The translations under genes and the position numbers were made by a program. Source: Flavobacterium croceum DSM 17960 (GTDB taxonomy: Bacteria > Bacteroidota > Bacteroidia > Flavobacteriales > Flavobacteriaceae). From it: a stretch of DNA of 64,000 nucleotides. The notes below the pieces were generated by a model. That model saw only the letters and a list, made by a program, of their open reading frames with translations. It ran no database searches and was not told the origin of the DNA. The stretch lies in the NCBI RefSeq assembly GCF_002917885.1, contig NZ_PQNY01000013.1, forward strand, positions 1-64,000. Direction: 5' to 3'. Positions 1 through 55,233 of the stretch are shown one piece after another (position 1 is the stretch's first letter; the number at the start of each line of letters is the position of its first letter).

Positions 1-244
1 ACTCTAACTTCTATTCAATTTTTTAATAAATTTGTATTTCAAAGAAACATTAACAACTTAAAAATAAATCTCGCTTAATAATGCACAACGGGTATATATA
101 ATTTAAAATATATGCTATTCTTTTTCTTTTTTGAGAATAGACAAATGTTAAAAATGGTATTTTTATGAAAATAATGTAATATTAGTTCTTAATTTTTTTA
201 TTTATTAAAAAATAATATTAAAAAAAATACGAAAATCATTTTTA

Positions 245-11463: not shown

Positions 11464-11498
11464 AAAGCTATATTTAAAATTTAAGTATAGCTTTTTTT
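11464..11498. terminator. convergent terminator between acs and the LTA-synthase-like gene
   Basis: A 9-bp stem (AAAGCTATA / TATAGCTTT) with a 13-base loop and a T-run serves the plus-strand acs. The left arm supplies A residues, so the hairpin can also work on the minus strand. Confidence 0.7.
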
Positions 11499-13587
11499 AT
11501 TTATTTAACTTTTTGTTTTTAAGTAAATAAGACGCCGTTTGGTAAAACGAAATTGTACTTTTTTCTAAACTAGCATCTATTTTTTCTAAAGGCTTTTCTT
11601 CATAATACAGTTGAAAATCAGCACCTAACTTATTGTTTGTTTGTTTTATCAACTCAAATTGTTTTACTTTCTTTACAGGAGAAATAATAGTGAGTTTATT
11701 ATTTTTAATCAATCCTAAATCTTGGTAAGTAGCAATAAAAGCTCTTGGGCTGTAAGTAGGTTTGAAAATATCCTGTCCATAAAATTTAGATTGATAACTA
11801 AAATTAAGCAGTCCAAATACGGTAGGCATCAAATCTATTTGCGATACTAAAGTATTTACTTTTTGAGGTTTTATAAAGTTTGGAGCATATACAAATGCAG
11901 GTATTCTATATTTATCCAATGGCAATTCAGTTTTACCAGAGCTAGAAGCGCAATGGTCGGCTACAATAACAAAAACTGTATTAGCAAACCAAGGTTGTTT
12001 TTGTGCATTTTCAAAAAATTTGCGCAAAGCATAATCTGTATATTTTACACCACCTTCTCTCGATTTTGAATGCGAGTCGATATCTATTTTCCCTTCTGGA
12101 TAAGTAAAAGGACGATGATTGCTTACAGTCATCCAATGATTAAAAAAGGGTTTGCCTTGTTTTGTTTCTTCATTCATAACCTTGATTGCTTTGTTTGCCA
12201 TATCTTCATCGCAAACACCCCAAATATTTGAAAAAGTAATTTCGTTCGGTAGTAACGATTTTTTATCTACAATATCATAACCATTTCCAGAAAAGAAATC
12301 TTCCATATTATCAAAATATGCATCTCCTCCATATAAATATTTTACTTGATATCCTTTTTGCTTTAATACAAATCCTGTAGAAAATTTATTTTTATTATCG
12401 ACTCTTTTTACAACACTTTCTCCAGCAGTAGGAGGTAGGCAAAGAGTAACAGCTTCGAGTCCACGTACAGTTCTGTTTCCAACGGCATATAAATTGGTGA
12501 AAAATAAACTTTGCTCTGCTAATTCATCTAAAAAAGGTGTAATATTTTGTTCATTACCGTAATGTTTCATAAAATCTGCGCTAAAACTTTCTATGGTGAT
12601 CAGTACAATGTTCTTTTTGTTCTCAATAGAATCAGATTTAATAAATCGTTCACTCGTTAAATTAGTATTTCCTATTTGTTGTTGTAACAAAGCAAAGGCT
12701 TCATTGTTTGGCATAGTTTTGTAAAACTTATCATACTCTAATTCACTGTTTTTAAAAGCTAAGAAAAATTTGTAAAGACCATTTGCTTGCAATTCGTTTG
12801 CAAATATATTATTTGAATTTTCTAATTTGGAAAGTTTAGGTATAATAAATAGAGAAAATAAAAACGCAAGAGCATATAAAGTTAAATCTGATAATTTTTG
12901 TTTTAATGTAGGTAGATTTTTAAGAAAAGCATTCGATTTTTTTACAATAAAATAAGTTACCAAAGCCGAAATAATTCCTACAGCCGAAAATAATGGAACA
13001 ACAGGATAAGATTCCATAATATTTCCAATAACAGTATTAGTATATACTAAATAATCTACTGCAATAAAATTATAACGAACACCAAATTCATTCCAGAAAA
13101 AAAATTCACTAATACTATTTTGAACAATAACTAATACAAAAATGAATATAGCGATACTAAATAATATTTTTCGTAGTAAAAATCGTTGTTTCGGAAAAAA
13201 TAAAAGTAGCCCAAATAAAACAGTTTTTATTCCTATAAATGTAATACCTATTTCGGGTAATGAACCTCCATATTCATTCAAAATAGTATTTCCAAAATAT
13301 ACATAGGCGAGTAAACTTAAAAGTAGTAAAAATATTATATGACCCCAAGGTTTATAATACTTTGAATTGGATAAAAACAACAAGTATAACCATAAAAATG
13401 CCGAAGCAATTATAAATACAAAAAAATCTGAAATAAAACCTAATCCAAAAATTTTTAAGCTTTCAAAAAAAGAAAATTTACTTTGTGTGATAGGGTGAAA
13501 CAGTAATACAATACGCAAAATAAAACTGCATAATAAATAAAATATTGTAATAAAATATAGAGGAGATTTTTTAGAAATAAAGCTCAT
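11497..13587 (-). CDS. LTA synthase-like membrane sulfatase / phosphoglycerol transferase
   Basis: The 696-residue protein starts with five membrane helices (within about residues 1-240) and carries a large extracytoplasmic alkaline-phosphatase-superfamily domain. The first metal motif is 'LITIESFSADFMKHYG'. The nucleophile appears to be T373 in 'GNRTVRGLEA', matching the catalytic Thr of LtaS. Later motifs include 'HWMTVSNHRPF' and 'VFVIVADHCASS'. Gram-negative homologues transfer phosphoglycerol or phosphoethanolamine onto periplasmic glycans or lipid A, but the substrate cannot be told here. It is monocistronic and convergent to acs. A minus-strand -7 box (TATTTTTG, 13603-13610) lies just upstream. 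Confidence 0.82.
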   Translation of the reverse strand: MSFISKKSPLYFITIFYLLCSFILRIVLLFHPITQSKFSFFESLKIFGLGFISDFFVFIIASAFLWLYLLFLSNSKYYKPWGHIIFLLLLSLLAYVYFGNTILNEYGGSLPEIGITFIGIKTVLFGLLLFFPKQRFLLRKILFSIAIFIFVLVIVQNSISEFFFWNEFGVRYNFIAVDYLVYTNTVIGNIMESYPVVPLFSAVGIISALVTYFIVKKSNAFLKNLPTLKQKLSDLTLYALAFLFSLFIIPKLSKLENSNNIFANELQANGLYKFFLAFKNSELEYDKFYKTMPNNEAFALLQQQIGNTNLTSERFIKSDSIENKKNIVLITIESFSADFMKHYGNEQNITPFLDELAEQSLFFTNLYAVGNRTVRGLEAVTLCLPPTAGESVVKRVDNKNKFSTGFVLKQKGYQVKYLYGGDAYFDNMEDFFSGNGYDIVDKKSLLPNEITFSNIWGVCDEDMANKAIKVMNEETKQGKPFFNHWMTVSNHRPFTYPEGKIDIDSHSKSREGGVKYTDYALRKFFENAQKQPWFANTVFVIVADHCASSSGKTELPLDKYRIPAFVYAPNFIKPQKVNTLVSQIDLMPTVFGLLNFSYQSKFYGQDIFKPTYSPRAFIATYQDLGLIKNNKLTIISPVKKVKQFELIKQTNNKLGADFQLYYEEKPLEKIDASLEKSTISFYQTASYLLKNKKLNK

Positions 13588-13640: not shown

Positions 13641-13668
13641 CTTTTAATAATCTTAAATTTAGCTTAAT
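13641..13668 (+). promoter_or_regulatory. 11-bp-period CTTAAN repeats upstream of the response regulator
   Basis: CTTTTA (13641), CTTAAA (13652) and CTTAAT (13663) start exactly 11 bp apart. OmpR/PhoB-family regulators bind direct repeats with this period. The last copy ends 38 bases before the -7 box at 13706. The sites probably serve autoregulation of the downstream two-component operon. Confidence 0.5.
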
Positions 13669-13705: not shown

Positions 13706-13713
13706 TATATTTG
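13706..13713 (+). promoter_or_regulatory. -7 box (TATATTTG) of the two-component operon
   Basis: A full TAnnTTTG match that ends 27 bases before the ATG at 13741. No good -33 element is present, which is consistent with activator dependence. Confidence 0.5.
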
Positions 13714-13740: not shown

Positions 13741-14412
13741 ATGAAAATTCTAATTGTAGAAGACGAAATAGGAATTTCCAATTTTTTAAGTCAAGGACTT
13801 CAAGAAGAAGGTTTTACTGTAGATGTTGCCAATCAAGGCGATTTAGGTTTACAAAAAGCCTTGACAGAAAAATACGATTTAATATTGCTCGATTGGATGC
13901 TTCCAAAGTTATCAGGATTAGAAATTTGTCTTAAAATAAGAGAACAAAATAAAGTAGTACCAATACTTTTTTTAACAGCAAAAGACACAGTACAAGAAAC
14001 TATAGAAGCCTTACAATCGGGAGCAAATGATTATATAAAAAAACCTTTTAGTTTTGAAGAATTACTCGAACGTATTAAAGTACATTTTAGAACCGCAACT
14101 CATTCTGAAGTTCTTAGCTTGGGCACAATAAAAATAGATTTAGGTAAAAGAAAAGTTTTTCAAAATGATAGCGAAGTTATTTTTACACAAAAAGAATTTG
14201 ATTTGCTTGCTTATTTGGTAAAAAATAAAGGAACTATTTGTAGTCGAAATAAAATTATTGAAGATGTGTGGGATATACATTTTGAATATGACAGTGGTGT
14301 GATTGATGTTTTTATGAATGCCATTAGAAAAAAATTAAACTTAACACCCGATGTGCCTCTTATTAAAACCATACGAGGTGTAGGGTATATAGCAGAAGAT
14401 AATCATGAATAG
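13741..14412 (+). CDS. OmpR-family response regulator
   Basis: The 223-residue protein has a receiver domain (acidic E8/D9, phosphoacceptor D51 in 'LILLDWMLP', 'FLTAKD', 'KKPFSFEEL') followed by a winged-helix DNA-binding domain with 'FTQKEFDLLAYLVKNKG' and the C-terminal 'IKTIRGVGY'. It overlaps the histidine kinase start by 8 bases, so the pair is co-translated. The next gene is a metal-type RND pump. By analogy with CusR/CopR/CzcR it probably activates that pump in response to periplasmic metal. CTTAAN repeats stand before both transcription units. Confidence 0.9.
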   Translation: MKILIVEDEIGISNFLSQGLQEEGFTVDVANQGDLGLQKALTEKYDLILLDWMLPKLSGLEICLKIREQNKVVPILFLTAKDTVQETIEALQSGANDYIKKPFSFEELLERIKVHFRTATHSEVLSLGTIKIDLGKRKVFQNDSEVIFTQKEFDLLAYLVKNKGTICSRNKIIEDVWDIHFEYDSGVIDVFMNAIRKKLNLTPDVPLIKTIRGVGYIAEDNHE

Positions 14413-15787
14413 TTTTTCTTTTAAAAACCGTATAGCATTTTACTATATCATTTCGACAGCTATGTTGGTTTTAATTGTATTTATAACCATACATGTTGTG
14501 GCAAAAAAATCGGTTTATGTACATTTGGATGCTGATATTCATACTGAAATAAATAAACTTTTTGGGTATATAAATGTTCAAGATAATGCTATTGTGCTTA
14601 CCAATGCTCAAGAGTGGAAAGAGGAAGAACATAGTACAGAAGAAGTAAATCCAATATTTGTAGAACTTTTGGATTTGCAAGGAAATTTGTTTGATAAATC
14701 TCCCAACTTAAAAAAAAGTCGATTACATTTTAGTAACCACGATAATGAAAAAGAAATTTTTAATGCAAAACTCAACGGAAAATCAGTTCGCCAAATAAAA
14801 GTCCCCATTTTTGATAAAGATAAAAAAGTAGGATTTATACAAGTAGCTATTTTACTTGAAAGCTCAAGTTATGTACTCCAACTACTTAATACAATATTAG
14901 TTGTAAGTTTTCCTATAATTTTACTTTTGTTGTTTTTAATTGCTCGTTTTTTTGCAGGCAGAAGTATTTCTCCTATTTACAATGTAATTGAAACATCAAA
15001 TTTAATTTCTACAGATAATTTATCTTCTCGCATCGCTTTACCAAATACCAAAGATGAAATTTATGTTTTATCGCAAACAATCAATAATTTATTAGATAGA
15101 ATAGAACGTGCAGTAGAGCGCGAAAAGCAATTTACATCAGATGCCTCACACGAACTTAGAACACCTCTTGCAGTAATTCAAGGTACGCTAGAAGTGTTGA
15201 TAAGAAAACCAAGAACAGAGCAAGAATACAATCAAAAAATTGCCTATTGCATATCCGAAGTAAATAGAATTAATACTATAGTAGATCAATTATTACTTTT
15301 GGCTCGATTGGAAAATCAAAAACAATCAATTAGTAATGCCGAAGTTTCAATAACCAACATAATTCATGAAACAATAAACCGATATTCTGCAGAAATAGCA
15401 AATAAAAATATAAAAGTACTCACTACTTTTACTGAAAATTTTTGGGTTCATTCAGATGCTTATTTCCTTTCTATTATTATTAATAATTTATTTTCAAATG
15501 CTGTAAAGTATTGCTATGATGCTGCAACGATTAACTTGTTTGTTTTAAAAGAAAATGAACAAATTAAGTTTGTCATTCAAGATGAAGGAATAGGTATATC
15601 GCAACCAGAAATTGAAAAAATATTCAATCCATTTTTTAGAGCAAAAAATACATTAGATAATTCTAAAGAAAAAGGAATAGGTTTAGGGTTATCTATAGTA
15701 AAACGTTTGTGCGACATTTTGTCTATTCAAGTAGAAGTAGAAAGTAAAGATAATGTAGGTACAAAATTCACACTTTATTTTCCTTAA
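14405..15787 (+). CDS. sensor histidine kinase (CusS/QseC-like)
   Basis: The 460-residue kinase has an N-terminal membrane helix (about 9-31), a periplasmic sensor of about 130 residues, a second helix (about 160-180) and a HAMP linker. The H-box is 'SDASHELRTPLAVIQGT' with H249, followed by the N-box 'NNLFSNAVKYC', G1 'IQDEGIGIS' and G2 'GIGLGLSIVKRL'. It is encoded with the upstream regulator and precedes the efflux pump. The periplasmic part contains scattered acidic and His residues (for example 'EEEHSTEE') that could bind metal ions, but this is only suggestive. Confidence 0.9.
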   Translation: MNSFSFKNRIAFYYIISTAMLVLIVFITIHVVAKKSVYVHLDADIHTEINKLFGYINVQDNAIVLTNAQEWKEEEHSTEEVNPIFVELLDLQGNLFDKSPNLKKSRLHFSNHDNEKEIFNAKLNGKSVRQIKVPIFDKDKKVGFIQVAILLESSSYVLQLLNTILVVSFPIILLLLFLIARFFAGRSISPIYNVIETSNLISTDNLSSRIALPNTKDEIYVLSQTINNLLDRIERAVEREKQFTSDASHELRTPLAVIQGTLEVLIRKPRTEQEYNQKIAYCISEVNRINTIVDQLLLLARLENQKQSISNAEVSITNIIHETINRYSAEIANKNIKVLTTFTENFWVHSDAYFLSIIINNLFSNAVKYCYDAATINLFVLKENEQIKFVIQDEGIGISQPEIEKIFNPFFRAKNTLDNSKEKGIGLGLSIVKRLCDILSIQVEVESKDNVGTKFTLYFP

Positions 15788-15790
15788 CAT

Positions 15791-15807
15791 CTTAAGTTGT
15801 TCTTAAG
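15791..15807 (+). promoter_or_regulatory. CTTAAG-N5-CTTAAG candidate operator before the RND pump
   Basis: CTTAAG at 15791 and 15802 are identical and 11 bp apart. A related CTTAAC sits at 15783, overlapping the kinase stop codon. The pair ends 22 bases before the -7 box at 15829, where a response regulator could contact RNA polymerase. Confidence 0.55.
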
Positions 15808-15828: not shown

Positions 15829-15836
15829 TACCTTTG
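15829..15836 (+). promoter_or_regulatory. -7 box (TACCTTTG) of the RND efflux operon
   Basis: A full TAnnTTTG match that ends 26 bases before the GTG start at 15862. It shows that the pump has its own promoter inside the two-component/pump cluster. Confidence 0.55.
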
Positions 15837-20209: not shown

Positions 20210-21343
20210 ATGACACAAAAAATGATGATAAAAAAGAATATCATAGCACTAGCTGTAATAGTATTTTTTTACAGTTGTAAAGAAACCCAAAAACAAGAAG
20301 CTCCTCAAAATCAAAGCTATATTACAGTTTCTGACACTCAATTTAATACCATGAAAATGGAATTAAGTTCGCCTGTTGAAAGAAATTTTGATGTTGCTGT
20401 TTCATGTTCTGGAAGAATTGATGTACCACCTCAAAACAAAGCAAAAGTTACAGCACTTGCCAATGGTTTTGTTAAAAACACCAAACTTTTAGTAGGAGAT
20501 AAAGTAACAAAAGGGCAAGCATTGCTTTCTATACAAAGTACCGAAATTGTAGATATTCAAAAAGAATACTTAGATGTGGCAGAGCAAATAAGTTTTCTTA
20601 AATCGGAATACGATAGACAAAAAACACTTTATAACGAAAAAATTACGTCGCAAAAAAATTATTTAAAGGCAGAGAGCGAATACCGTAGTGCTATGGGTAG
20701 ATACCAATCATTACAACAAAAATTATATATTTTTAACATAAGCCCTAGCAATGTTCAAAAAGGGAAAATAGTATCTGCTATAACCATTTTTGCACCTATA
20801 TCTGGTGTAGTATCTGTTATGAATGCGGTAAACGGAATGGCTGTTTCGCCTACAGATGTATTGCTAGAAATTGTAAATAATAATGATTTACATATAGAAA
20901 TGAGTGTATTTGAAAAAGATATATTAAAAATAAAAGAAGAACAAACTATTAAATTTACAGTTCCAGAAGCAAGCAAAGATGTTTTTACAGGCTATGTGCA
21001 TTTAATTGGTAAATCTGTAGAGGGAGAAGATAGAAGTATTAATGTTCATGGGCACCTAGATGATGCTACAAAACAAAAACTACTTAGCGGCATGTTTGTG
21101 CAAGCCAATATTTTAGTAGATTCGCAAAAAGGATTTTCGGTTCCAAAAGATGCTGTATTTTTAGAAAATGGTAAAAATTATGTTTTAGTCTTAAAATCAC
21201 ATCAAAAAGGTGTTTATTCTTTTGACAAAGCATTTGTTGAAAAAGGTTCTAGCAATGAAGATTTTATTGAAATAAAACTAAATGATATTGTTACAAATAA
21301 AACGTCTATATTAACCAAAGGAGTTTTTGATATTATTAATTAA
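20210..21343 (+). CDS. RND periplasmic adaptor lipoprotein (CusB/CzcB-like)
   Basis: The 377-residue protein begins with a lipoprotein signal (IIALAVIVFFYSC), so it is anchored by a lipidated Cys (residue 23 from the first ATG). The body has the membrane-fusion order: a biotinyl-lipoyl half motif ('ANGFVKNTKLLVGDKVTKGQ'), a coiled-coil hairpin (about 110-180), the second lipoyl half ('IFAPISGVVSVMNAVNGMAV') and beta-barrel regions. It bridges the inner-membrane pump to its outer-membrane channel. ATGs at 20222 and 20225 are alternative starts with a shorter signal. It is encoded 1 base after the pump. No CusB-like Met-rich N-terminus is evident. Confidence 0.87.
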   Translation: MTQKMMIKKNIIALAVIVFFYSCKETQKQEAPQNQSYITVSDTQFNTMKMELSSPVERNFDVAVSCSGRIDVPPQNKAKVTALANGFVKNTKLLVGDKVTKGQALLSIQSTEIVDIQKEYLDVAEQISFLKSEYDRQKTLYNEKITSQKNYLKAESEYRSAMGRYQSLQQKLYIFNISPSNVQKGKIVSAITIFAPISGVVSVMNAVNGMAVSPTDVLLEIVNNNDLHIEMSVFEKDILKIKEEQTIKFTVPEASKDVFTGYVHLIGKSVEGEDRSINVHGHLDDATKQKLLSGMFVQANILVDSQKGFSVPKDAVFLENGKNYVLVLKSHQKGVYSFDKAFVEKGSSNEDFIEIKLNDIVTNKTSILTKGVFDIIN

Positions 21344-21360
21344 CACAAACTTTATATATT

Positions 21361-21864
21361 ATGAATGAAGCGCATTTACACATGGTAGTTAATCATTTTC
21401 CAATTATAGGAATGATTTTAGGATTAATAATTCTTTTAGGAGGATTATTCTTAAAAAATAATACAGTTAAAAATGTTTCTTATTTTTTAATTATTATAGC
21501 AGCAGTATTTTCGGCAATAAGTATGGCTACTGGTGAAGGAGCAGAAGAACTTGTAGAAAATATGCCCGAAGTTGGTAAAAAAATTATTCATATACACGAA
21601 GAAGCTACAGAAAAATTTGCTATAGTAGCCTATTTGTCTGGAATTGCATCGTTAATAGGTCTTTATATGAATATAAAACAAAAAGCAAAGGCAAACTTAG
21701 TTTCGTATGTAGTTGTAGTCTTAGCAGTAGTAGCAGCTTTTTTATCGAAGTCAGTTGGCACAACAGGTGGTGAAGTTCGTCATACAGAGATAAGAGAAAA
21801 TGGTACTTCAAATCAACAAATGAATACTTCGAGTGAACACGAAGATAATGAACATGAAGAGTAA
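21361..21864 (+). CDS. four-helix membrane protein with His/acidic tail in the efflux operon
   Basis: The 167-residue protein has four predicted membrane helices and begins 'MNEAHLHMVVNHFPIIGMI', with His residues in and before the first helix. More His residues follow helix 2 ('IIHIHEEATEKFAIVAY'). The tail is hydrophilic and rich in His, Glu and Asp ('SSEHEDNEHEE'). It resembles DUF2231-type membrane proteins but I am not certain. It follows the adaptor by 17 bases and ends the operon before a terminator. A role in metal or heme handling is a guess from context. Confidence 0.6.
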   Translation: MNEAHLHMVVNHFPIIGMILGLIILLGGLFLKNNTVKNVSYFLIIIAAVFSAISMATGEGAEELVENMPEVGKKIIHIHEEATEKFAIVAYLSGIASLIGLYMNIKQKAKANLVSYVVVVLAVVAAFLSKSVGTTGGEVRHTEIRENGTSNQQMNTSSEHEDNEHEE

Positions 21865-50650: not shown

Positions 50651-51181
50651 TTAATCAAATTTTCCGTTGTAGTAACTATGCCATTTTCCTTGTACTTTCA
50701 TTACTTGCTCAATTACATCTCTCACAGCACCTGTGCCGCCATTTTTATGCGATATGTATGTGGCAATATTCTTTATTTCTGGACTAGAATCTTGCGGACA
50801 AGTAGGTAAACCTACCAATTGCATAACGTGAAAATCAGGAATATCATCACCCATGTATAACACATTTTCAGGATTAATACTATAGATCTCACAATATTCT
50901 TTAAACGTTTCAACTTTATCTGGCGAACCTAAATAAATATCTGTTATGCCTAAATTTTTTAATCGAATGCGAACGCCTTCGTTACTTCCTCCCGAAATTA
51001 TACATACATTATAACCACTTTCTAGGGCAGCTTTCATGGCAAAACCATCTTTAATATTCATTTCTCTAAGCATTTCGCCTGTAGGCGTAATATGCACTGT
51101 TCCATTGGTTAGAACGCCATCTACATCAAATATAAATGTAGTAATTTGGTTCATTAATTCTTTATAACTTTTTGTTGGCAT
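50651..51181 (-). CDS. kdsC: 3-deoxy-D-manno-octulosonate 8-phosphate phosphatase (KdsC-type HAD)
   Basis: The 176-residue HAD phosphatase has 'FDVDGVLTNG' (D19, D21), 'IISGGSNEGVRIR', 'SPDKVETFKEY' and 'MGDDIPDFHVM'. This is the compact C0-type fold of KdsC, which makes Kdo for lipopolysaccharide. The first ATG overlaps the preceding gene by 20 bases; a Met nine codons later (base 51154) would remove the overlap and still keep the fold. It fits a Gram-negative outer membrane. Confidence 0.88.
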   Translation of the reverse strand: MPTKSYKELMNQITTFIFDVDGVLTNGTVHITPTGEMLREMNIKDGFAMKAALESGYNVCIISGGSNEGVRIRLKNLGITDIYLGSPDKVETFKEYCEIYSINPENVLYMGDDIPDFHVMQLVGLPTCPQDSSPEIKNIATYISHKNGGTGAVRDVIEQVMKVQGKWHSYYNGKFD

Positions 51182-51926
51182 CTTTTTGTATAGATTGAGT
51201 CAATAATGTGTAAATTTCTTTTTTTGTTATGTCGTTTAGCATCTCCAAATGCTTATTTATAGTGTTATTGTCGTTTCGTATAGCTGGGCCTGTTTGGGCT
51301 TCACTTGGTGTTAAATATTCTATTTTTGAAGCTGTTTCTTCAATTAAGGGCAATAATATTTCAAAAGGAATGTTGTTTTCTACACAAATATCATTGCCTA
51401 TTTTGTATAGATGATTTACAAAGTTGCAAACAAAAACAGCCGCTATATGTAACGATTTTCTTTGTTCTGAAGAAATAGAATATACTTTTTCCGATAATGA
51501 AAATGCGAGTTTTTCTAGTATTTTATAATCGCTTTCACTCTCTGTTTCTAAGCAAATTGGAACGGTTTTAAAATCGACTTCTTTATTTTTTGAGAAAGTT
51601 TGCAACGGATAAAACACACCTTTTCTATTTTTATCATTTATACACTGCATAGGCATAGTGCCCGAGGTATGCACAACAAATTGATTGGTAAAAGGTAAAT
51701 TTTCACTAACTTCTTGTATAGCACTATCACTCACAGCAATAATACAAACATCTGCTTGAGTCAAATGGGCAATATCAGTAATAATTTTTGATATGTGCAA
51801 ATTGCTAGGTAGCGCATTGCTATTTCGAGCATATACTTTTTTTAGAATTACTGTATCAGAATTCTCAAAATTTGTAATTAAATGCTGTGCAATATTGCCC
51901 GAACCAATAATATTTACTGTTATCAT
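51162..51926 (-). CDS. Rossmann-fold / DUF2520 protein
   Basis: The 254-residue protein has an N-terminal NAD(P)-binding motif ('IGSGNIAQHLITNF') of the F420-dependent oxidoreductase type, 'IIAVSDSAIQEV' and 'HTSGTMPM', and a helical C-terminal DUF2520 domain ('SLHIAAVFVCNFVNHLY'). Its substrate is unknown. It is the first gene of the operon DUF2520-kdsC-ubiA-maf-mscS. A minus-strand -7 box ends 4 bases before its ATG, which predicts a leaderless message. Confidence 0.85.
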   Translation of the reverse strand: MITVNIIGSGNIAQHLITNFENSDTVILKKVYARNSNALPSNLHISKIITDIAHLTQADVCIIAVSDSAIQEVSENLPFTNQFVVHTSGTMPMQCINDKNRKGVFYPLQTFSKNKEVDFKTVPICLETESESDYKILEKLAFSLSEKVYSISSEQRKSLHIAAVFVCNFVNHLYKIGNDICVENNIPFEILLPLIEETASKIEYLTPSEAQTGPAIRNDNNTINKHLEMLNDITKKEIYTLLTQSIQKDANKKL

Positions 51927-52000: not shown

Positions 52001-52017
52001 CTTAAAAAACTCTTAAA
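52001..52017 (+). promoter_or_regulatory. CTTAAA-N5-CTTAAA repeat upstream of ccsBA
   Basis: Two CTTAAA copies start 11 bases apart (52001 and 52012). The pair ends 38 bases before the -7 box at 52055, exactly the distance seen before the two-component operon at 13706. It is a candidate site for the same response regulator. Confidence 0.45.
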
Positions 52018-52054
52018 TAGGAATTGTTGAAGCAATCAATATTTAAAATTAGCT

Positions 52055-52062
52055 TACTTTTG
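52055..52062 (+). promoter_or_regulatory. -7 box (TACTTTTG) of ccsBA
   Basis: A full TAnnTTTG match that ends 24 bases before the ATG at 52087. Confidence 0.55.
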
Positions 52063-52086: not shown

Positions 52087-55000
52087 ATGCTAAAGAAACT
52101 ACTTTCTGTTCTGTTTTCCACCCGATTAATGGCTGTTTTATTTATAGTTTTTGCGGCAGCAATGGCAGCAGGAACTTTTATAGAAGATGCATACAATACA
52201 GATGCTGCTAGAGTTTGGATATACAATGCGTGGTGGTTTGAAGCGATTATGTTGGTGTTTGTAATCAATTTTTTTGGAAACATTAAAAAATACCAATTGT
52301 ATAAAAAAGAGAAATGGGCTACCTTGTTATTGCACTTATCTTTTATTTTTATTCTAGTTGGAGCATTTATTACAAGATATATTAGTTACGAAGGTATGAT
52401 GCCTATAAGAGAGCATAGTGTCTCGAGAGCTATATATTCAGATAAAAGTTTTTTAACACTCTATGTAGATGGTATGTACAAAGGCAAAATGATGCGTCGT
52501 AGTTTTGAAGAACCTCTAATCTTGTCTCCAGCTGTGTACCCACCATTTGCTAGTAATAATTTTTCTATTAGTACTAAATTTAATCAAACACCATTTTCGG
52601 TTTCTTATAAAGATTTTATTGCAGATGCCAAAGAAACTATCGTAGAAGATAAAAACGGAAAGTTATTTTTAAAGATGGTTGAATCGGGCGGAGGTTCTCG
52701 ACACGAGCATTATTTGGAAGAAGGACAAATAGCAAATATTCATAATATTTTATTTACATTAAACAAACCTGTTGCAGGAGCTGTAAATATTATTTCTAAG
52801 CTAGGTGTTACTACAATAAGCACACCATTTGACGGAAGCTATATGCGAATGTCAGATAAATTGCAAGGCAAAGTTACAAAAAACACTACAGATTTGTTAA
52901 TGTTTCGTTCACTCTACAATGTTGGCGAAGCACAATTTGTATTTCCAGAGCAGCCTATTAAAGGGAGTAAAAAATTAATTTCTGGAGGAGATTTAAAAGC
53001 CAAGCAAAATGAAAATGCACTTATTGTAACAGTTGAAACCGAAGGTAAAACAAAAGAAGTGGTGTTAAAAGGAACAAAGGGTAAACAAGGAGAAGGACAA
53101 ACATTTAAGCTCGGTAAACTAGAATTTACATTAGCTTATGGTTCTAAAATTTACGAAACACCTTTTGCTATCAAATTAAACGATTTTATTGCCGAAAAAT
53201 ATCCAGGAACAGAAAAATCATATTCTTCATTCAAAAGTAAAATTACTGTAATGGATACTTTATATGGCAATAACAAAAGGTTTGATACTGATGTATATAT
53301 GAATCATGTTTTAGACTATCAAGGATTTCGTTTTTTTCAATCGTCTTTCGATCCAGATGAACAAGGAACTATACTTTCTGTAAATCATGATTCTTGGGGA
53401 ACCAATATTACTTATTTGGGTTACTTTTTGCTATACTTTGGTTTAATGGCTATTCTATTTGTTAAAAACACACGTTTTGCCGATTTAAAAAGAAAATTAA
53501 ACGATATAAAAAAGAAAAAAGCATCGCTTTTATCAATTGCAGTATTGTTATTGTTTTCAAGTTATGCAATAGCCCAAAATCATAATCATAAAATAAATTT
53601 TCAAGATTCTATCCTTAAATACAAAGTTCCCGAAATTCAAGCCGAAAAATTTGGAAGACTAATCATTCAAGATGAAGGTGGTAGAATGAAGCCTATCAAT
53701 ACGTTTTCATCAGAACTTTTACGAAAAATAAGTAAACATGATAACTTTTTTGGTTTGAATTCTGATCAGGCTTTTCTATCGATGACACAATACCCAAATG
53801 CTTGGTTTGAATTGCCTGTACTTTACATTAAAAAAGGGAACGATAGTTTGCGTGGTATTATTGGTGTAAATAAAGATGAAAAATATGCTTCGTTAAGAAA
53901 CTTTTTTGATGAAAAAGGTAATTACAAGCTTTCTAGATATTTAGATGAAGCAAATAGAGCTTCAGTTCCCAATCAATTTCAAAAAGATTTTATCGATATA
54001 GACAAACGTGTCAATTTATATTACAGAGCCTTATATGGTGGTGCATTAAAAGTATTTCCAATTCCAAACGATAAAAACAATAAGTGGGTATCTTATTTAG
54101 AATTGAGTACACCTACAGGTACGGCATTAGACACCATAAAAAATGCCTTACCTATTTACTTAAACGCTTTGAGCAAAGGTATAGAAAGTAAAAATTTTAC
54201 TATGGCAAATACCATGCTCGATGGTATCGATAAATACCAACAAAAGTTTGGTAAAAGTGTTATTCCTACCAAAGAAAAGGTTGATGTAGAAATTTTGTAT
54301 AACAAATATGATGTTTTTAAAAATCTATTTGCAGTACTGATGGTTACCAGTGTAATTATGATAATACTGGTAGTTTCAAATATATTTTTTAATCCAAAAT
54401 GGTTAATATTAACTATTAATGCTACTCATATATTTATAGCTATATTATTTGTGGTTCATACACTTGGGCTTATAGCTCGTTGGTATGTGTCTGGGCACGC
54501 GCCTTGGAGTAATGCATACGAAAGTATGATTTATGTTTCTTGGGCAACATCGTTTTTTGCATTAGCATTTGATACAAAATCGAAGCTTACAGTTGCTGCA
54601 GGAGCTTTTGTTTCTTCTATGATATTAATGATTGCTCATTGGAATTGGATGGATCCAGATATAGGCAATTTACAACCTGTACTTAATTCGTATTGGCTAA
54701 TGATACATGTTGCAATAATTGTGGCAAGTTATGGTCCTTTTACACTAGGAATGGTGCTTGGTTTGGTTTCACTATTGCTAATTATTTTTACCAATAAAAA
54801 TAACAAACAAAAAATGGAACTTAACATCAAAGAGATTACTTACATTACAGAAATGGCTCTAACTATTGGTTTGGTTATGCTTACTATTGGTAATTTCTTG
54901 GGCGGACAATGGGCAAACGAATCCTGGGGGAGATACTGGGGTTGGGATCCAAAAGAAACGTGGGCTTTAATAAGTATAATGGTGTATGCATTTGTAATTC

Positions 55001-55233
55001 ATGCACGATTTGTACCTGCTTTGCGAGGCTTATTTGCCTTTAACTTTATGAGTGTTTTAGCATTTGCTTCTATTTTAATGACATATTTTGGTGTGAATTT
55101 TCATTTATCGGGTATGCACTCGTATGCTACAGGTGAAAGACAAAATGTACAAATTTATTTATACATACTCGTAGGTTATTTCATTTTATCAGCAATTGCT
55201 TATGTTAAGTATAGAAAATGGTATAAAAAATAG
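52087..55233 (+). CDS. ccsBA: CcsBA-type cytochrome c synthase (ResB-ResC fusion)
   Basis: The 1048-residue membrane protein fuses a ResB/CcsB half to a ResC/CcsA half. The first ~430 residues have three early helices ('LFSTRLMAVLFIVFAAAMAA'), a large periplasmic domain and one more helix. The C-terminal part has the heme-handling 'SGHAPWSNAYES' with a conserved His, the WWD-type 'WGRYWGWDPKETWALI', and 'NFHLSGMHSYATG'. It exports heme and attaches it to CxxCH of apocytochromes. ATG 52087 is chosen because the upstream TTG 52024 lies before the promoter. It is the sole gene between its promoter and a terminator. Confidence 0.92.
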   Translation: MLKKLLSVLFSTRLMAVLFIVFAAAMAAGTFIEDAYNTDAARVWIYNAWWFEAIMLVFVINFFGNIKKYQLYKKEKWATLLLHLSFIFILVGAFITRYISYEGMMPIREHSVSRAIYSDKSFLTLYVDGMYKGKMMRRSFEEPLILSPAVYPPFASNNFSISTKFNQTPFSVSYKDFIADAKETIVEDKNGKLFLKMVESGGGSRHEHYLEEGQIANIHNILFTLNKPVAGAVNIISKLGVTTISTPFDGSYMRMSDKLQGKVTKNTTDLLMFRSLYNVGEAQFVFPEQPIKGSKKLISGGDLKAKQNENALIVTVETEGKTKEVVLKGTKGKQGEGQTFKLGKLEFTLAYGSKIYETPFAIKLNDFIAEKYPGTEKSYSSFKSKITVMDTLYGNNKRFDTDVYMNHVLDYQGFRFFQSSFDPDEQGTILSVNHDSWGTNITYLGYFLLYFGLMAILFVKNTRFADLKRKLNDIKKKKASLLSIAVLLLFSSYAIAQNHNHKINFQDSILKYKVPEIQAEKFGRLIIQDEGGRMKPINTFSSELLRKISKHDNFFGLNSDQAFLSMTQYPNAWFELPVLYIKKGNDSLRGIIGVNKDEKYASLRNFFDEKGNYKLSRYLDEANRASVPNQFQKDFIDIDKRVNLYYRALYGGALKVFPIPNDKNNKWVSYLELSTPTGTALDTIKNALPIYLNALSKGIESKNFTMANTMLDGIDKYQQKFGKSVIPTKEKVDVEILYNKYDVFKNLFAVLMVTSVIMIILVVSNIFFNPKWLILTINATHIFIAILFVVHTLGLIARWYVSGHAPWSNAYESMIYVSWATSFFALAFDTKSKLTVAAGAFVSSMILMIAHWNWMDPDIGNLQPVLNSYWLMIHVAIIVASYGPFTLGMVLGLVSLLLIIFTNKNNKQKMELNIKEITYITEMALTIGLVMLTIGNFLGGQWANESWGRYWGWDPKETWALISIMVYAFVIHARFVPALRGLFAFNFMSVLAFASILMTYFGVNFHLSGMHSYATGERQNVQIYLYILVGYFILSAIAYVKYRKWYKK

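Follow-up and report, generated by a model that had tools for sequence, protein, structure and literature searches.

Three copies of an 11-bp direct repeat, CTTAA-N6-CTTAA, precede a metal-type response regulator, its neighboring RND pump and the cytochrome c assembly gene ccsBA in the window, by which we mean the whole 64 kb stretch of DNA analyzed here. These three sites are not products of chance, and their conservation among related genomes is the decisive evidence. The first-pass annotation had proposed that they place cytochrome c heme attachment under the metal-responsive regulator. We instead favor, at a probability of roughly 0.6, an account with two systems, in which the metal-type regulator would read the boxes at 13652 and 15791 while a different OmpR-family regulator, with a PhoP/PhoB-like protein as the leading candidate, would read the box at 52001. 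This account builds on the conservation of the boxes, their spacing, the differences between their classes and the persistence of the ccsBA box in genomes that lack the metal regulator; from these observations we infer binding, the direction of control and the reader of the ccsBA box.

Table 1 Repeat sites, −7 boxes and surrounding genes in the window.
Feature	Position	Strand	Evidence
11-bp direct repeat CTTAAA-N5-CTTAAT upstream of the response regulator	13652..13668	+	exact pair in 23/63 regulator promoters read
Weak third half-site CTTTTA before the regulator	13641..13646	+	sequence
TATATTTG, Bacteroidota-type −7 box, regulator promoter	13706..13713	+	sequence
PmrA-type box CTTAAG-N5-CTTAAG before the pump	15791..15807	+	sixth bases G in 16/16 exact boxes after the kinase
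TACCTTTG, −7 box, 21 bases after the pump box	15829..15836	+	21 bases in 15/16 genomes with the box
11-bp direct repeat CTTAAA-N5-CTTAAA before ccsBA, class apart from the pump box	52001..52017	+	exact pair in 15/101 promoters
TACTTTTG, −7 box, ccsBA promoter	52055..52062	+	35–38 bases after the box in 15/15 exact-box promoters
OmpR-family response regulator, nearest CzcR/SilR/CopR heavy-metal regulators	13741..14412	+	TIGR01387, 206.4 bits
Sensor histidine kinase, partner of the regulator	14405..15787	+	TIGR01386, 206.3 bits
CusA/CzcA-type RND metal efflux pump, 1448 aa	15862..20208	+	TIGR00914, 1186.3 bits
RND periplasmic adaptor	20210..21343	+	TIGR01730, HlyD_D23
DUF2231 membrane protein, next in cluster	21361..21864	+	domain match
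ccsBA, cytochrome c assembly protein (ResB-like + Cytochrom_C_asm)	52087..55233	+	domain matches
Divergent DUF2520 gene, same intergenic region as ccsBA	51162..51926	−	domain match

The boxes and −7 elements lie where the first-pass annotation had placed them at all three loci (Table 1), and the weak third copy before the regulator is present as well. The −7 elements were called with TAnnTTTG, which we take to be the Bacteroidota consensus. The repeat-to-−7 distances of 38, 22 and 38 reported earlier are differences between start and end coordinates; counted as intervening bases, as throughout this work, they are 37 (regulator), 21 (pump) and 37 (ccsBA). The equality of the regulator and ccsBA distances was rejected as a signal: the regulator-side distance, 37 bases here, ranges from 22 to 69 bases in other genomes.

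The metal locus has the same gene order as Cus and Czc systems, namely regulator, kinase, CusA/CzcA pump and adaptor, and its best family matches are to models of those systems. The pump exceeds its curated cut-off (701.45 bits), whereas the regulator and kinase fall below theirs (279.2 and 292.55 bits, respectively), even though TIGR01387 is the best family match of the regulator. The E. coli CusR site is reportedly a palindrome rather than a direct repeat. Of the named relatives closest to the kinase, several are Flavobacterium, and on this basis the genus was taken to be Flavobacterium. Divergent from the regulator lies a gene for a sulfatase-domain protein with LtaS-like matches (window 11497–13587, minus strand), and because of this orientation the 13652 box could also serve that gene.

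Chance had been a declared concern for a motif this rich in A and T. Within the window, 8 strand matches with at most one mismatch were observed, below the shuffle expectation of 20.4, and genome-wide the exact pattern occupies 14 distinct places (16 strand matches) compared with 21 for the reversed pattern; three of the 14 fall in the 64 kb window, out of a genome of 2.95 Mb. Our first control, the reversed AATTC-N6-AATTC, is imperfect, as are the window shuffles, because both ignore the stop codon held in CTTAA, which also leads coding DNA to disfavor the motif; we therefore compared CTTAA pairs at other spacings as well. Across 100 of the 117 matches, among them all 16 at N6, that spacing gave 16 matches versus a mean of 6.0 over the other N2–N14 spacings (range 3–9; N1, 12), an excess with a Poisson P of 0.0025 after scaling of the mean. 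Outside open reading frames of at least 100 codons we found 11 of the 14 N6 places, compared with 2 of the 21 reversed-pattern places and 8 of 25 pairs at other spacings (the 25 that could be placed among 28 loci newly fetched). Pairing the pattern with a −7 box across 14 genomes yielded 36 matches versus 28 for the reversed control, and the combination thus finds no regulon by itself; 16 of the 36 are ccsBA promoters, some assigned by locus and the rest from their letters.

Conservation gave a far clearer answer. Among the 101 Flavobacterium genomes examined, the exact pair precedes 23 of 63 regulators, 12 of 22 adjacent pumps and 15 of 101 ccsBA genes, against maxima of 2, 1 and 1 promoters, respectively, in 100 shuffles. 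Other spacings occur in 0 or 1 promoters, apart from period 22, which is seen in 9 regulator promoters as a sign of triple repeats. Because the genomes share ancestry, these promoter counts are not independent, and the spacing profile serves as the cleaner control. The regulator promoters read come from 63 of the 72 genomes that have the regulator, and 23/63 may be a low estimate because several upstream stretches read like the end of another gene. A pump was detected after the kinase in 23 genomes, of which 22 were counted, one stretch being too short; over a wider stretch 14 of the 23 pump promoters carry the exact box and 9 do not.

The same controls bear on the ccsBA repeat alone, for which chance in an AT-rich promoter is a highly improbable explanation. 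The excess of near-matches expected in the window shuffles would fit chance, as would the result outside the genus, where a TTAA pair at period 11 occurs in 2 of the 29 ccsBA promoters read (of 59 matching genomes), no more than at other periods. Within the genus, however, pairs with at most one mismatch stand at period 11 in 31 of the 101 promoters, at period 16 in 20 and at the other periods from 7 to 19 in 0–9; the period 16 count fits a group of promoters in which the element CTTAATTTTGGATTAAATTAACAA has roughly the position of the box. The 15 exact boxes also hold their position, each starting 86–100 bases before the ATG and 35–38 bases before the −7 box. As the data stand, chance is disfavored by the spacing profile, and we rejected it for the repeats on the strength of the spacing and conservation controls.

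At the metal locus, the claim of a conserved OmpR-type direct repeat before the two-component system and pump is supported within the genus, and similar pairs lie beside the kinases of more distant relatives. At the pump, G occupies both sixth bases in all 16 exact boxes found after the kinase, 14 of which have a detected pump, and the box stands 21 bases before the −7 element in 14/14 with a detected pump and in 15 of the 16 after the kinase; in the sixteenth, a −7 box was not found within reach. At the regulator, the box here has no G at base 6, and G occurs at either sixth base in 14 of 23 promoters (one box counted per genome), so base 6 fails to separate every metal site. Beyond the genus, a YTTAA-N6-YTTAA pair lies beside the kinase in all 15 named relatives examined (those at ≥35% identity, from 80 fetched), 708–959 bases before the kinase start or 1367–1638 after it, with one more at 2155. 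These relatives include Dyadobacter, Hymenobacter, Algoriphagus and Crocinitomix, together with members of Melioribacteraceae and Chlorobiaceae, which represent two other phyla. A contig labeled as a Klebsiella pneumoniae MAG (CALPPA020000108.1) encodes a kinase 49% identical to the one here, with a CTTAAG box; it is probably a mislabeled bin.

The pump box closely resembles a known site. In Salmonella and Klebsiella, the passages of PMC3973317 that deal with the PmrA (BasR) box describe head-to-tail CTTAAG and XTTAAT half-sites, five base pairs apart and bound by an OmpR-family protein, with CCTAAG as the second half-site at pbgP. The layout is the same here and the letters are nearly so, the second half-site being NTTAAG rather than NTTAAT. 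Solved relatives of our regulator include BasR/PmrA, but by family model it is not PmrA (NF007928, 147.6 bits versus a cut-off of 330), and it sits with a metal pump.

We propose that the kinase would phosphorylate the metal-type regulator, which would then bind two hexamers head to tail as a dimer at the 13652 and 15791 boxes, acting on its own genes and switching on the CusA/CzcA pump from the latter. Lying 21 bases before the −7 element, the pump box would take the position of the −33 element, where direct contact with RNA polymerase is possible. Binding and direction of control at both boxes are thus read from position, and such metal autoregulation is ordinary in kind. The pump box provides a concrete, conserved candidate site for a Bacteroidota metal-type two-component system, in nearly the letters of the enterobacterial PmrA box.

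Binding of all three sites by the metal-responsive regulator, which would tie cytochrome c heme attachment to metal stress, is suggested by the shared 5-base core and period, by the 37 bases to −7 at both regulator and ccsBA in this genome, by the conservation of exact pairs before all three gene classes, and by the regulator's own box, which lacks G here as the ccsBA box does. The distribution over 101 genomes shows no such association. Regulator orthologues were found in 72 of the 101 (E value 1e-55), with 9 of the 29 remaining genomes assigned as regulator-less by elimination. The exact ccsBA box occurs in 10 of the 72 genomes with the regulator and 5 of the 29 without (one-sided Fisher P = 0.77), and the box with at most one mismatch in 21/72 and 10/29 (P = 0.78). 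The box is thus not found only or mainly alongside the metal regulator, contrary to what membership in its regulon would lead one to expect.

The five genomes that carry the exact box without the metal regulator are estimated to be 99% (G089) or 85–93% (the other four) complete, and a search for the OmpR-type DNA-binding domain recovered two or three such regulators in each, none more than 33% identical to the metal regulator. A tree of ccsBA N-termini from 50 of the 101 genomes (30 best matches and 20 chosen by hand) divided into halves with the box, at ≤1 mismatch, in 23/30 rows of one and 0/20 of the other; regulator-less lineages retain the exact box (G089, G043, G014, G035, G086) or a one-mismatch box (G095, G021, G100) in this tree. 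Eight independent pairs that differ in the regulator likewise gave no association, the box being the same in 5.6 on average, concordant with the regulator in 1.8 and opposite in 0.6, although too few are informative. Base 6 separates the pump and ccsBA classes too: the first sixth base of the ccsBA box is A or C and the second A or T, never the G of the pump box (0/15 genomes), and it is at ccsBA, not at the regulator, that the spacing to −7 is conserved. We therefore consider it distinctly unlikely that one metal regulator controls all three sites, and the proposed link from metals to cytochromes is unsupported. These comparisons suggest that different regulators read the metal and ccsBA boxes, with the latter a separate conserved site of predicted OmpR type, although the metal regulator, where present, might bind ccsBA too.

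At about the position that the CTTAAA box occupies in the window's clade, the ccsBA promoters of many other Flavobacterium genomes have another conserved element, TTTTGGATTAAATTAACAA or a variant such as TTTTTGGTTTTTATTAACAAA. Among 30 ccsBA loci with long flanks, 9 had the exact box, and DUF2520 lay upstream in 7 of these (one a short match) and was absent from that place in 2; the box may affect the divergent DUF2520 gene. Centered about 60 bases before the expected start, and with its conserved distance to −7, the ccsBA box would fit an activator bound upstream, and a repressor is possible as well.

In the two-system account, the likeliest reader of this box would be another response regulator, perhaps the PhoP/PhoB-like one present in all 101 genomes. 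That protein and an RprY-like regulator are both encoded in each of the five genomes that have the exact box but not the metal regulator. The PhoB-like protein accompanies the ccsBA box wherever it occurs, which is uninformative alone given that the regulator is universal. It directly precedes a kinase-like gene and scores 212.9 bits against the Bacteroidetes PhoB model NF053854, below the cut-off of 270. Its own promoters, located in 22 of 30 cases, contain TTAA-N7-TTAA, a repeat of the same period as the CTTAA pairs, in 18 of the 22 read, typically as ATTAAATTAC-GTTAAC.

Comparison with another member of the Flavobacteriaceae, where the authors place Riemerella anatipestifer (PMC9603813), strengthens this candidate. 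DAP-seq and EMSA in that study showed its PhoP to bind a motif most strongly conserved in the letters TTTAACA; PhoPR is autoregulated, and its direct targets include two cytochrome c genes, which are listed as repressed; the paper's two tables, covering 50 genes, contain none annotated for cytochrome c assembly. The universal Flavobacterium regulator resembles PhoP of the Riemerella pair in directly preceding a kinase-like gene, and we treat it as a presumed orthologue. The letter fit is imperfect, in that the Riemerella motif ends in CA and the ccsBA box of the window's clade, CTTAAA, has no CA; TTAACA is present in other ccsBA promoters (G009, G011, G080 and the TTTTGGATTAAATTAACAA group). 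Universality, repeats in its own promoter and the Riemerella motif with its cytochrome c targets together make the PhoP/PhoB-like regulator the leading candidate.

We consider it rather unlikely that the box is read by an RprY-type regulator or some other factor in place of the PhoP/PhoB-like protein. An RprY-type gene is indeed present in each of the five genomes with an exact box and no metal regulator, and the half-site CTTAAA matches neither the CTTAAG of the pump class nor the TTAAC of promoters of DUF47 genes. Against an RprY-type reader, the six loci read (one with only 113 bases upstream) had no TTAA repeat in common ahead of the RprY-type gene, a TTAA pair standing close to the start codon in two of the six. 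A link through HaeSR, a hemin two-component system of Porphyromonas, was also considered and set aside, no motif having been found in the part of its paper that was consulted (PMC3764172).

Promoters of DUF47 genes carry repeats in this same 11-bp frame. A TTAA pair at period 11, its units mostly TTAAC, was present in all 23 of the promoters used (7 of 30 rows were misplaced). The repeats take the form TTAAC-N6-TTAACA, the second being most often preceded by C and the first by G or C. In the genome studied here DUF47 adjoins a pit-like gene, and its repeat lies at C9:119915-119930. One 11-bp CTTAA direct-repeat frame would then serve several OmpR-family regulators. More tentatively, and with considerable doubt, we raise the idea that the sixth base tells these regulators apart, with G for metal efflux, C (mostly followed by A) for DUF47 phosphate transport and A for cytochrome c assembly, and that ccsBA is wired to the universal two-component system. 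In Bacillus subtilis, ResB and ResC correspond to CcsBA, and the OmpR-type phosphate regulator acts on the resABC locus. Control of cytochrome c assembly would, if this idea held, be a Bacteroidota counterpart of the control of resBC by PhoP and ResD in Bacillus, an analogy given the different phylum and gene order.

These results have consequences for how such repeats are read. ccsBA, which is needed for the cytochromes c of this pathway, has its own conserved, predicted regulator site in the genus. A shared OmpR-type repeat is a poor ground for postulating a single regulon, since several regulators per genome appear to share the frame. The remaining interest would lie in this common frame with its differing sixth base and in the predicted site at ccsBA. 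Among the matches listed in a literature search, with subscription journals mostly outside its scope, no paper described such a site in Flavobacterium.

Several further occurrences were observed. A further CTTAA-N6-CTTAA pair of this genome, at C3:11354-11369, lies between two genes that we take from their sequences to be rnhB-like and, in divergent orientation, a SusC-like receptor. Four relatives have such a pair before their rnhB-like gene; one of them is G089, a genome in which the metal regulator was not detected. In five relatives a gene of the endonuclease/exonuclease/phosphatase family (checked in one) follows the repeat and a −7 box. Finally, the sequence CTTAAAAATAAATCTCGCTTAA at window positions 57–78 has identical copies at C1:315552 and C11:56; because two of the three copies are near contig starts, this may be a repeat lying at breaks in the assembly.
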